NCBI GenBank assembly: GCA_947488625.1
Contig: CANKZR010000001.1
Coordinates: 1,674,001-1,738,000 of the forward strand
Length of the DNA stretch: 64,000 nt
From: an uncultured Sphingomonadaceae bacterium
GTDB taxonomy: Bacteria; Pseudomonadota; Alphaproteobacteria; Sphingomonadales; Sphingomonadaceae
Direction: 5' to 3'
Below are positions 15,255 to 39,440 of this stretch, piece by piece. Each line of letters begins with the position of its first letter. Position 1 is the stretch's first letter. The position numbers and the translations under genes are program-made. The notes below the pieces were generated by a model. That model had not been told where the DNA came from, did no database searches, and worked only from the letters and a program-made list of their open reading frames with translations.

Positions 15255-16475
15255 ATGTCTGAAATCAAACGCGTCGTCCTCGCCTATTCCGGCGGGCTGG
15301 ATACCAGTGTCATTGCAAAATGGCTGGAAACCGAGCGTGGGCTCGAAGTCGTCACCTTTACTGCCGATCTGGGCCAGGGTGAGGAAATCGAACCAGCGCG
15401 CGAGAAAGCGCGCGCCATGGGCATTCCCGACAAGCACATTTATATCGAGGACGTGCGCGAGGAATTCGTAAGCGATTACGTCTTCCCGATGATGCGCGCC
15501 AATGCCCGCTACGAAGGCGATTACCTTCTGGGAACTTCGATTGCCCGTCCGCTGATCTCCAAGCGGCTCGTCGAAATCGCCCACGAAACCGGCGCAGATG
15601 CCATCGCGCACGGCGCAACCGGCAAAGGCAACGACCAGGTGCGGTTCGAGCTTTCGGCCTATGCGCTCGATCCCGATATCAAGGTAATCGCCCCTTGGCG
15701 CGAGTGGGATCTTACGAGCCGCACCGCATTGATCGCCTGGGCCGAAGAGCATCAGATCGCCGTGCCCAAGGACAAGCGAGGCGAAGCGCCCTTCTCCACC
15801 GACGCGAACCTCCTGCACACCTCGTCCGAAGGCAAGGTGCTGGAAGATCCGTGGGAGGAAACCCCCGATTACGTTTTCTCCCGCACGGTCTCTCCACTGC
15901 AGGCACCTGACGAGCCTGAATATGTCGAGATCGGCTTCGAAAAGGGCGACGGCGTTTCGCTGAATGGCGAGACGATGAGCCCGGCCACTCTGCTCACCGC
16001 CTTGAACGAACTGGGCCGCAAGCACGGTATCGGGCGTCTCGATCTGGTCGAGAACCGCTTTGTCGGCATGAAATCGCGCGGCATGTACGAGACGCCGGGC
16101 GGCACGATCTACGCCGTTGCGCATCGCGGTATCGAGCAGGTGACGTTGGATCGCGGGGCTGCCCACCTGAAGGACGAGCTTATGCCGCGCTATGCGGAGC
16201 TGATCTACAACGGCTTCTGGTTCAGCCCGGAACGCGAGATGCTGCAGGCCGCAATCGATCTCAGCCAGGAGAAGGTGAACGGAACCGTGCGCCTGATGCT
16301 CTACAAGGGCGGCGCTCACCTGGTGGGCCGCAAGTCCCCCAATTCGCTCTATTCCGAAGCGCATGTAACGTTCGAGGACGATGCAGGCGCCTATGACCAG
16401 CAGGACGCTGAAGGCTTCATCAAGCTGAACGCCCTGCGATTGCGCCTTCTGGCGGCGCGCGATCGCAGGCGATAG
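15255..16475 (+). CDS. argG: Argininosuccinate synthase
   Basis: 406 residues, the full family length. The ATP-pyrophosphatase loop [10 protein letters not shown] is at residues 10-19. The family segments [42 protein letters not shown] and [19 protein letters not shown] are all present. It condenses citrulline and aspartate to argininosuccinate in arginine biosynthesis. The gene stands alone; the start ATG at 15255 follows a short A+T-poor leader. Confidence 0.97.
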
Positions 16476-16502
16476 TTTCAGTCGAAACGCCGAGCCGTTG
16501 AC

Positions 16503-16545
16503 TTGTCCACCCTTGTCCACCGGCAATTCTTTGCAAAGTGGATAA
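16503..16545. promoter_or_regulatory. Cluster of three DnaA-box-like sequences
   Basis: TTGTCCACC occurs at 16503 and again at 16513 on the plus strand, and TTATCCACT (complement of 16537-16545) on the minus strand. The DnaA box consensus is TTATCCACA, with G allowed at position 3. Three near-matches in 43 bases, two in direct repeat and one inverted, sit 28 bases after argG and upstream of the putative RNA. The rest of 16476-16694 shows no gene. Chance occurrence cannot be excluded, and nothing else looks like an origin. Confidence 0.3.
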
Positions 16546-16694
16546 GTCGACGTCCCCGCTCTTGCCCGACTCGGCCCTGTGGGCGCACCTTGCTTGTATC
16601 GAGAGTGAAGAAGGACCAGCTTCCTGCATCGCCCGACGAGGCAGGAAAACGGAAACCGAAGCGCACTCGACGCGATGAGAGCACGATCGCGGCG

Positions 16695-17065
16695 TAGGAA
16701 AGAGACATCGCTACCTTCGGGTAACGACGTGTCGGACTGTTGAAACCGCATCGACTGTCATCGGTTGGCCGGAACCCTTGGACCGGTATCGATGGTGACA
16801 CGCGCAGCTTGCTGCACGCGGCACCGCTCGAGATGCCAACCAGGGCGAAGGCTGCGGACAGGCCGCCAGACCTCGCAAGGACCGGTCCTCTGGATCCCCT
16901 TGCAAGACCGGGCACCTATCCGGCACCGGCGCGAGCGCCGGGCGACATATCCCTGGCTGAACCTTCGGGTTCGCGAGGGAGACACGCAAGGCGTAAAGTA
17001 TCACCCTCAGGGGTGGTCCACACGTCGGTGAGAGTGGGGTCGGTAGCGATACCGACCCCATTTTT
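16695..17065 (+). ncRNA. Putative structured non-coding RNA, family unknown
   Basis: No protein-like frame is present, but the plus strand holds a series of stable hairpins. These include TACC-TTCG-GGTA at 16712-16723 (extending to about 16704-16733), CCGGCG-cgag-CGCCGG at 16926-16941, and TCCCT...GAACC-TTCG-GGTTC...AGGGA at 16950-16980. CACCC-tcag-GGGTG lies at 17002-17015, followed by a perfect terminator at 17035-17065. Two C(UUCG)G tetraloops point to the plus strand as the RNA. I looked for the conserved RNase P, SRP and tmRNA signatures and did not find them. The 5' end is a guess; it could reach back to about 16500. It might be 6S RNA or a new RNA. Confidence 0.5.
17035..17065 (+). terminator. 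Strong Rho-independent terminator
   Basis: A perfect 11-base stem, TGGGGTCGGTA (17035-17045) with TACCGACCCCA (17050-17060), has a GCGA tetraloop and is followed by TTTTT. No coding gene ends within 550 bases upstream on this strand, so it most likely ends the putative RNA. Confidence 0.9.
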
Positions 17066-17205
17066 CGTTAACCATCGCGCGTTCCCGCCCGCCCGAACGG
17101 TTCGTCGCATTTTCGCCTCATTTCGCGACGGACCGCCCCGGTGAAGCGTTTTCAGGCCCGTGCCGGACTCGCTCTTGTAACTTCCATCGACTAACCCCGC
17201 TCTCT

Positions 17206-17784
17206 ATGGACGGGAACAACATCACCCGCGCTACCCTGCGCTGGATCACCCCCCTCGCTGCGCTTGCGCTGCTGGGGGCGACGGGCGTCAGCCGGGCGCA
17301 GGATGCGCAGTTCGCGGCGGAAAGCAGCGCCGCCAAGGCAGAGCCGCAGGCCCCGCAGCCGGCCTTCCAGCCCAGCGAAGCGGCGCAGTTCGAGAACGCC
17401 TTTGCCCGCTTTGCAGAGCCTATCGAGCCTGCCCTGCCCGATCACGCGGTGGACATCACCAGCATCGAACCCGCAGAGCCCAGCGCCACCCCCATCGGCC
17501 CCGGCGTTGCCAGCTATTACGGCCGCCGCTTCCACGGTCGACGCACCGCCAATGGGGAGCGGTTCGACATGAACGCGCTCACCGCCGCGCACAAGACGCT
17601 GCCCTTCGGCAGCCGCGTACGGGTAACGAACCCGCGCAGCGGCGCATCCGTCGTGGTGCGCATCAACGATCGCGGACCGTTCGTGCGCGGCCGCCACATA
17701 GACCTGTCGCGCGCAGCGGCAGAGGAAGTGGGCATCGTGCGTTCGGGCCATGGCCGGGTCGAGCTGGAACTGCTCGACGACTAG
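17206..17784 (+). CDS. rlpA: RlpA-like septal ring lytic transglycosylase (double-psi beta-barrel)
   Basis: 192 residues. A signal peptide or N-terminal anchor (residues about 10-33, ending SRAQDAQ) is followed by a Pro/Glu/Ala-rich linker. The RlpA double-psi barrel runs from about 100 to 190: [19 protein letters not shown], then [19 protein letters not shown], then [20 protein letters not shown]. No SPOR domain follows, so septal localisation is not shown. RlpA cleaves naked glycan strands during cell separation. The TANGE and NDRGPF catalytic-site motifs are intact. Confidence 0.87.
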
Positions 17785-17790
17785 GCCGCG

Positions 17791-18594
17791 TCACCCGGCG
17801 CGGCCCGCGCCGTCCTCCTCCCGCACGCACCACCATTCCGGCACCCCGTTCTGAAACGCCGCCAGCCGCGCGGCTTCGGATGCATGCCATTCGGCATCGT
17901 CCATGCCGCTGCGCGCCTGCGCATCGCCGGGCAAGGCGTCGGCCATCAGCGCAAGCCGCCAGTCCAGCCCCAGTTCGCGCCAGTCGCCATGCTCCTGGAA
18001 CTCCTCTTCTTCCGCCAATGTGGAACACATGGAACAGTGTCCTGAAGCAAAATCTGGCCCCTCCGCATCGCCCGCCTCCCCGGCCTCTGGCGTAGCCGCC
18101 TGCGAAGCGCGTTCCAGCGCATCCACGGCTGCATCGAATTCATGCTCCCCCAGCAGCGGAGCCTCGCATGTCTCGCAAGCCTCCGCCTCCTCGGCCCGCT
18201 TGTCGAGCCGCGCTAGGTGGGCGAGCAGCAGGCGCGAATCGTAACGCCTGCGGGTGGCGACCTCCTCCCCGTGGTAGAACACCGTCTCCTCCACCCCGTT
18301 AAGAGCGCGGTCGGCCAGCACCTGCTCCGCATGGTCGCGCGCGATCACCAGTGCCGCGTCCCAACACTTGCGAAAGGCCGGAGACGCCCGCCGCGCGCGA
18401 TAGGCCGTCTGCGCCGAAACCTGCACCGCCCGGCACGCGAGCCGCACATTGCCATGATTGGCCAGCGCCTTGCAGAACGCCGCCTGCTTTGGCGGCGTGA
18501 GCAATGGCGCAGGGCCGCTCTGCGGCGACGCGTTCAGCGGGCGCAGGGGGACGAGATTTGTTGTGTCGGGAGATGTGTGAGCGTCGGCGGACAT
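17791..18594 (-). CDS. HTH protein resembling phage terminase small subunit, acidic C-terminal tail
   Basis: 267 residues. The N-terminal region (about 30-100) holds a helix-turn-helix: PPKQAAFCKALANHGNVRLACRAVQVSAQTAYRARRASPAF, reminiscent of terminase small subunits and the HTH proteins derived from them. The middle reads AEQVLADRALNGVEETVFYHGEEVATRRRYD. The rest is acidic, with Cys pairs (CETCEAP and CSMCSTL) that could bind metal. No other phage gene is adjacent, so it is more likely a domesticated chromosomal gene. It is convergent with rlpA. Confidence 0.55.
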   Translation of the reverse strand: MSADAHTSPDTTNLVPLRPLNASPQSGPAPLLTPPKQAAFCKALANHGNVRLACRAVQVSAQTAYRARRASPAFRKCWDAALVIARDHAEQVLADRALNGVEETVFYHGEEVATRRRYDSRLLLAHLARLDKRAEEAEACETCEAPLLGEHEFDAAVDALERASQAATPEAGEAGDAEGPDFASGHCSMCSTLAEEEEFQEHGDWRELGLDWRLALMADALPGDAQARSGMDDAEWHASEAARLAAFQNGVPEWWCVREEDGAGRAG

Positions 18595-39155: not shown

Positions 39156-39249
39156 AAAACCTCCAATCATAAACGAACACGTCGCTCATGACGGAGGGAG
39201 CGTAAACACGCTCTTCCGCAGGCCTTCGGTACACCCCGCCCGGCAGCAC

Positions 39250-39440
39250 AAGCGACAGTCTCAGGCAGGTCTCCTGGCTCCCGGATCAGTGCCTTGCGCC
39301 CGCCTTCCCACCCTTTCGGGCAGTGGCAATTGGGTGCATGGCTCCCCGGTCACAGTTGCGGGGGCAGCGCGGGTGTTCCACCCGCTTCCCTCTTAGATCC
39401 GGTTTCCCGGATAACCCGTGACGTCGCCGCCCCAATATGC
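39250..39440 (-). promoter_or_regulatory. Cobalamin (adenosylcobalamin) riboswitch
   Basis: On the minus strand the B12 box AGCCAGGAGACCTGCC is at 39264-39279. Upstream of it are the expected core helices (GGGTGGAACACCCGC-type arm near 39375, and the ACCGGGGAGCCATGCACCC segment near 39340). It lies about 95-285 bases before the btuB start. Binding of adenosylcobalamin is expected to shut off expression of btuB-F-C-D. The 392-base gap 39156-39547 is otherwise empty. The ends of the aptamer are approximate. Confidence 0.93.

Follow-up and report, generated by a model that had tools for sequence, protein, structure and literature searches.

The 730-base gap between argG (15255-16475) and an rlpA-like ORF (17206-17784; TIGR00413, 148.8 bits) encodes a folded structured RNA, likely on the plus strand, that almost certainly represents a new RNA family. 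The locus lies in a window of 64,000 nucleotides (G000:C1:1674001-1738000) from a sphingomonad-group genome, and coordinates are given as positions in this window. On balance we favour a lineage-specific gene for a large structured noncoding RNA with its own promoter and terminator, which would be wired to DnaA, GcrA and CcrM and would act in trans.

The sequence-only reading of this DNA had reported that the gap holds no recognisable protein gene; sequence, Pfam and ORF conservation agree. Four ORFs of the gap (the longest of 145, 134 and 116 aa) gave zero Pfam matches, and no conserved long ORF was found among 30 relatives. Where a start codon is retained in 80% or more of the 30 relatives, the frame behind it is in most cases very uneven in length; one conserved minus-strand start reads out through the promoter block (median 50 codons, range 18-51). 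A few frames of 5-25 codons are common to relatives, which leaves some room for very small peptides. Beyond rlpA, a 267-aa ORF on the minus strand (17791-18594) gave no Pfam match; besides the window's copy it was seen near the locus in at most 12/30 same-genus loci, where flanks are short.

The RNA had been placed at 16695..17065. The 3' end was retained; the 5' start was moved to near 16598, most likely the true start as judged from a conserved ATCGA, about 100 nt of the 5' end having been missed. The conserved regulatory region begins near 16500, and its promoter of box-like sites and GANTC was absent from that reading, so the feature is larger than given. The two most conserved blocks are the promoter region (~16488-16575) and the 3' domain (~16919-17069), and the body between them is variable. 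The overall fold consists of five domains in a row followed by the terminator, and the MFE structure of the window's RNA agrees in outline.

16598..17065, plus strand: structured noncoding RNA, ~468 nt; covariation over 111 pairs, more GU than AC cells
16599..16670, plus strand: RNA domain I; closing helix 16599-16606/16663-16670
16671..16764, plus strand: RNA domain II; closing helix 16671-16681/16755-16764, double changes in 7/10 pairs, C(UUCG)G loop
16768..16853, plus strand: RNA domain III; helix 16782-16790/16832-16840, double changes in 8/8 pairs
16855..16922, plus strand: RNA domain IV; closing helix 16855-16862/16915-16922
16924..17030, plus strand: RNA domain V, a three-way junction; from 47 sequences across genera plus the same-genus alignment
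16924-16933/17021-17030, 16935-16944/16985-16994 and 16998-17001/17016-17019, plus strand: helices of domain V
17032..17065, plus strand: intrinsic terminator; 14 pairs, 11-bp perfect core, GCGA loop, T5

Covariation was counted in two alignments, one of 30 whole RNAs from the same genus and one of 47 3' domains from many genera (54 loci with a match, 7 near-duplicates left out). The same-genus consensus had 111 pairs in 21 helices with 88.9% of cells paired, and 93.3% of cells were paired in the 3' domains; both shares are favoured by structures derived from the same alignments as were used for counting, and the number of double changes is the stronger measure. Double changes were present in 57 pairs and 271 cells of the same-genus alignment, compared with 99.6±9.1 cells in shuffles (0/500 as high) and 58-85 cells when partners were slid by 1-3 columns; the 3' domains gave 149 cells, compared with 38.0±7.6 in shuffles (0/500) and 16-40 in slid controls, related genomes not being independent and cell counts overstating events. 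The fold of the 3' domain is thus preserved in other genera, and the compensatory substitutions on which the earlier reading had staked the structure exceed the controls in both alignments. Weaker helices of the same-genus consensus were helix 14 (67.7% of cells paired) and helix 7 (74.1%). The terminator stem was paired in all cells of the 30 same-genus relatives.

The successive hairpins described before, including two with C(UUCG)G loops, were found in the sequence. The reported terminator was confirmed as an 11-bp perfect stem TGGGGTCGGTA/TACCGACCCCA (17035-17045/17050-17060) with a GCGA loop and T5 at 17061-17065; a simple terminator scan did not list it. The MFE of 16598-17065 was 4.8 sd below that of dinucleotide shuffles (0/100 as low). 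The minus strand folds too (z -5.1), and the strand therefore cannot be read from stability alone. The plus strand was assigned from the promoter direction, from a U-tract that is on this strand only, and from wobble cells, counted with the terminator helix left out: GU exceeded AC by 199 to 93 in the same-genus alignment and by 140 to 37 across genera.

Some further properties of the RNA were recorded. A local hairpin at ~16926-16941, CCGGCG(CGAG)CGCCGG, can form between the 5' strands of two junction helices; it was paired in 97.5% of cells in the 47 sequences and had 2 double-changed cells, a number reached by 40/500 shuffles. This hairpin excludes the three-way junction; a two-state switch is conceivable on that count and not supported beyond it. 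U content averaged 14.7% in 45 RNAs. GAATC, one form of the CcrM site, occurred once inside these 45 RNAs compared with 36.6 expected from a first-order model, and is near-absent within the RNA, whereas the promoter keeps GANTC. A CsrA-sequestering RNA was considered, CGGA and GGAA being enriched among 4-mers, and was set aside as unlikely, with GGAG depleted and AGGA not among the 28 most enriched 4-mers shown.

Rfam 15 gave zero matches at gathering score in the argG-rlpA region, and 0/20 relative loci matched any family. Five matches were obtained in 16440-17230 at E ≤ 10, all far below gathering scores, and RNase P, SRP RNA and tmRNA were not among them, in line with the earlier statement that their core signatures were not found; ARAGORN reported no tmRNA in the 64-kb window. 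Of the two identities then offered, a 6S-like RNA was rejected. The 6S model (RF00013) has no match here even at E ≤ 10, and the genome's own 6S sits elsewhere (G000:C1:1451898-1452066, 47.5 bits, cut-off 46.4). 6S is a structured RNA of the same genomes at a separate locus: it was located at a separate place in 21/21 genomes tested, the window's included, 8 of them over the curated cut-off. The other identity, something new, stands, as does the description of an unassigned structured RNA ended by a terminator, given the covariation, the lack of an Rfam family at gathering score and the conserved promoter and terminator. No description of the argG-rlpA RNA was found among the open-licence PMC papers listed. 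The window's only Rfam match at gathering score was a cobalamin riboswitch (39246-39434, minus strand, 129.6 bits).

A DNA search of 61 genomes matched 32, all of the same genus (32/37 of the genus searched). Two 3'-domain models, R1 and R2, were built from family sequences, and their matches in the family include training sequences. These models placed the RNA in 32/37 same-genus genomes and in 96/199 family genomes at E ≤ 0.01 or 65/199 at E ≤ 1e-4, the window's genome included. At E ≤ 1e-4 matches were obtained in 25/147 genomes of the order, all within the family; the class gave 2/240, both within the family. Outside the family the RNA was found in none of these draws of 147 and 240 genomes, for which stricter filters were set that lose weak matches. 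Named genomes were scanned for the box pattern described below, and 20 of 80 listed loci were tested with R2; the matches listed came mostly from unrelated genomes and form no census. Among these 20, 13 gave none and seven, all in records titled as sphingomonads, scored 100-135 bits: three Altererythrobacter (including A. segetis), Erythrobacter, Qipengyuania, Croceicoccus and a Sphingomonadales MAG. R2 scored 134.6 bits in both G016 and L138.

Five same-genus genomes gave no match. In G020, G026 and G033, rlpA follows argG within ~200-280 nt (junctions L263, L261 and L264, respectively), so the RNA is absent; G026 is 84% complete and the junction is present. The RNA is therefore not essential in these three genomes. 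A GC-rich terminator-like hairpin is retained at L263 and looks like a remnant. The other two, G028 and G032, are cut by N or contig ends, and one still has the box pair. In G035 the RNA is 378 nt (L011, 1267-1644), ~90 nt shorter through loss in its 5' half; promoter, 3' domain and terminator are retained.

Probable relatives were also seen further away. At L250, L257 and L260, which represent three other genera, a box pair of exact motif (26, 37 or 25 bp) lies downstream of argG, and R2 matches weakly (21-30 bits) 563-708 nt beyond the assumed start; GANTC is in the promoters of L250 and L260. Weak family matches (E between 1e-4 and 0.01) numbered 35 places, 20 of which were fetched. In ten, a TTATCCAC box precedes the terminator end by 384-774 bases; nine of these also have GANTC (not L287), only three have the opposite box GTGGATAA, at 25-26 bp, and only one lies beside argG. 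The ten without the TTATCCAC box were left out of the relatives. No box pair was found downstream of argG in 7/10 other-genus family genomes or in 5/5 other-family genomes without a strong match. The strict counts probably underestimate the spread of the RNA within the family, or at least that of its promoter and terminator, although with looser box spacing. The terminator hairpin (GCAA or GCGA loop) is similar in sequence in L250, L257, L260 and the ten boxed weak loci, and the similarity persists where the RNA body cannot be aligned; the hairpin may have a role beyond termination.

The promoter region contains three sites resembling DnaA boxes and a putative core promoter with an embedded methylation site.

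16503..16511, plus strand: DnaA-box-like site 1, TTGTCCACC in the window, TTATCCAC in many relatives
16513..16521, plus strand: DnaA-box-like site 2, TTGTCCACC, 10 bp after site 1 in the same orientation
16537..16545, minus strand: DnaA-box-like site 3, TTATCCACT as read on that strand; start-to-start distance from site 1 to its GTGGATAA, 35 bp
16562..16567, plus strand: putative -35, TTGCCC, aligned with TTGNNN of relatives
16568..16572, plus strand: GACTC, a GANTC (CcrM-type methylation site) directly 3' of the -35; N varies among promoters
16586..16591, plus strand: putative -10, CACCTT, with a spacer of 18 nt

In a typical relative the block reads TTATCCAC, a second TGTCCAC 10 bp on, and GTGGATAA 35 bp from the first, start to start. 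Loci of other genera have both outer boxes exact in 23/26 cases, always spaced by 35 bp; in distant relatives often one or two boxes are recognisable, and pairs are 25-26 or 37 bp apart, not 35. Compared with TTWTNCACA, the boxes have one or two mismatches. The exact box form is tied to this RNA alone: the pattern TTWTCCAC-N27-GTGGAWAA was found in 49/199 family genomes at one place each (reversed control 0), and 49/49 places lie beside an R1 match, 407-587 bases start to start. The window's own first box, TTGTCCAC, does not match this exact pattern. Judged by these motifs the three boxes are candidate DnaA sites to which DnaA would bind. An RNA stem formed by the outer boxes was rejected; several relatives combine TTATCCAC with GTGGAAAA, which breaks the pairing and keeps two box-like sites.

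Downstream of the boxes the order is TTGNNN, GANTC, a -10-like element and ATCGA as the likely start. Many relatives have CATTCT or CAGTCT as -10 with a 17-nt spacer. GANTC is present in 74/76 promoter rows, or 73/75 distinct ones once the identical L039 and L183 are merged; L002, the nearest relative, and L059 lack it, as do the distant L257 and L287. It lies 18-40 nt after site 3 in 69/76 promoters (200 base shuffles: average 6.4, maximum 13) and 3-6 nt after TTG in 67/76. The 71 matches in the 18-40 nt interval have C as N in 56, A in 11, G in 2 and T in 2. The first position of GANTC after box 3 is at 22-24 nt in 66 rows, 12 in five and 29-30 in three. The -35/GANTC unit of the five is 11 bp, or one helical turn, closer to the boxes, and the GANTC of the three is 6-7 bp further on, still before the -10. 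This pattern looks like selection for a CcrM site.

GcrA (PF07750 over cut-off) is encoded in 8/8 genomes tested. The methylase of the window's genome has a RAMA match over cut-off and an NF050803 score of 611.7 bits, below the NCBIfam CcrM model cut-off of 830, and is therefore called CcrM-like. What a GcrA/CcrM promoter should have, a conserved GANTC in the core promoter and genes for GcrA and a CcrM-like methylase in the genome, was found. In the cited account, Caulobacter GcrA bound to hemimethylated ctrA P1 extends over the -35 together with the GAnTC next to it (PMC3667746), and in a bioinformatic analysis, as cited, Caulobacterales and Sphingomonadales are the only groups in which ctrA is listed among GcrA targets (PMC7987155). 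By its motifs the RNA promoter is quite probably wired to DnaA, GcrA and CcrM.

The distance from the RNA to hemE, which marks the origin by proxy only, was 0.286-0.432 of the chromosome in 16 single-contig genomes (sizes rounded for 12). In G018, GC skew sampled in 20 stretches of 20 kb had its cumulative minimum near hemE; the sampled skew of G010 was too noisy to show a clear minimum. With hemE taken as the origin, replication would reach the locus in the later half of the round. The locus as oriC, suggested by the DnaA boxes, was rejected: in G018 the RNA is far from hemE and dnaA, and the skew minimum is near hemE.

Known systems were compared as they are described in the cited passages. 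CcnA, a cell-cycle noncoding RNA at the replication origin of Caulobacter crescentus, is presumably activated by CtrA and acts on CtrA and GcrA (PMC8959179). It resembles the argG-rlpA RNA as an alphaproteobacterial noncoding RNA whose promoter is presumably under a cell-cycle master regulator; it differs in its place at the origin, compared with 0.286-0.432 of the chromosome from hemE, and in the presumed CtrA control, compared with DnaA-box-like sites and GANTC here, the comparison being by description, not sequence. EcpR1 of Sinorhizobium meliloti is a trans-encoded, stress-induced RNA acting on the cell cycle (PMC4414408), the role proposed here; the likeness is by description only. EcpR1 is described as rhizobial and induced by stress; for the argG-rlpA RNA, pairing with dnaA or gcrA did not exceed that with shuffled targets. 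The E. coli sites DARS1, DARS2 and datA are likewise small DnaA-box clusters away from oriC (PMC5742627, PMC8682772). In the DARS core as described, box I points against boxes II and III (PMC5742627), and the three boxes here also have one opposite to two. Start-to-start spacings are 14 and 12 bp in DARS1 and DARS2, compared with 24 and 10 bp here, read on the other strand, and the cluster here is coupled to a promoter and a structured RNA. In Caulobacter ctrA P1 a GANTC likewise adjoins the -35, by the cited description (PMC3667746); the promoter here has a further block of DnaA-box-like sites upstream and serves an RNA instead of a protein gene, and its methylation and GcrA control are predicted.

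The following sequence of events is proposed. DnaA would bind the three sites ~53-95 bp upstream of the RNA start, and GcrA would assist or gate RNA polymerase at the CcrM-methylated GANTC beside the -35, so that RNA expression would follow DnaA activity and the methylation state of GANTC. Passage of the fork would leave GANTC hemimethylated until CcrM acts. The intrinsic terminator would release the five-domain RNA, which would work in trans; regulation of a cell-cycle or division step through binding to a protein or an mRNA is its most likely mode. Transcription, the binding of DnaA and GcrA, timing and action in trans are all inferred, and a trans-acting role in the cell cycle is offered as a tentative working hypothesis. 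At late-replicated promoters the hemimethylated period is short, and the GcrA paper, in the part cited, raises the question of what methylation achieves there (PMC3667746); this weakens timing by fork passage.

Targets were sought as duplexes of 30-nt windows of the RNA with the 5' regions of dnaA (5 genomes) and gcrA (2 genomes). Best energies were -34.9 to -43.8, compared with means of -36.9 to -41.5 over 8 base-shuffled targets, and the best shuffled target beat the real one in 7/7 cases. For gcrA the real target was better than the shuffled mean in 2/2 genomes; the GC-rich RNA window responsible (offset 320) recurs for dnaA, and this pairing is not counted as signal.

A housekeeping or stress role for the structured RNA, with boxes and GANTC serving strong activation only and without cell-cycle regulation, is unlikely. 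Size, strong structure and low U content (14.7% average, 45 RNAs) do resemble those of structural RNAs, and no target was found among the dnaA and gcrA 5' regions; this account leaves aside that the box arrangement is unique to the RNA promoter in genomes with an exact match (49/49) and that GANTC is kept in 73/75 distinct promoters despite its shifting place, which suggests regulated use. There is hardly any chance of a known housekeeping RNA missed by the covariance models: size alone speaks for one, whereas 6S is elsewhere, none of 6S, RNase P, SRP and tmRNA appears here at E ≤ 10, and the 20 relative loci match no family at gathering score. The neighbours, on the same strand in most carriers, would suit a long rlpA leader, an argG trailer or an mRNA for small proteins: rlpA was found in 30/30 same-genus loci, argG in 29/30 (the contig ends there in the exception), and both in 26/26 loci of other genera. 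Such transcripts are very improbable given a separate promoter-like block after argG, a terminator that precedes rlpA by 140 nt, an inverted rlpA in L049, probable relatives away from argG in other genera, and the lack of a conserved long ORF or Pfam match in the gap.

The functional element may also be the DNA, the three boxes forming a DnaA-controlling locus (DARS-like reactivation, or datA-like titration) to which the RNA is secondary and in which adjacent transcription merely sets the activity of the box sites. Two tandem boxes and a third of opposite orientation give the arrangement described for the DARS core (PMC5742627), the outer boxes keep their 35 bp in other genera (exact in 23/26 loci), and the chromosomal position is kept in 16 genomes. 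Between boxes I and II the spacing nevertheless departs from the DARS value by roughly one turn, and covariation over 111 pairs along 470 nt, the conserved -35/GANTC/-10 and the terminator are left unexplained, which makes this reading quite improbable as the whole account; a DnaA-control site and an RNA function can both be true at once. A joint version, with a DARS-like box triplet and a CcrM/GcrA-gated promoter together driving a large multidomain RNA that feeds back on replication or division, is speculative and rather doubtful. If true, one compact element would read initiator activity and chromosome methylation and answer with an RNA, not a protein; no description of a replication-coupled control device of this kind was found among the papers listed.

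We return to the favoured reading, a trans-acting structured RNA under a DnaA/GcrA/CcrM-wired promoter. To our knowledge few bacterial RNAs this large, with a conserved multidomain fold, lie outside known families, and we know of few alphaproteobacterial noncoding RNAs tied to the cell cycle. The fold is defined, the promoter itself states a testable hypothesis (DnaA and GANTC methylation), and three same-genus genomes without the RNA are available for comparison. If confirmed, the sphingomonad DnaA-GcrA-CcrM circuit would have an RNA output.
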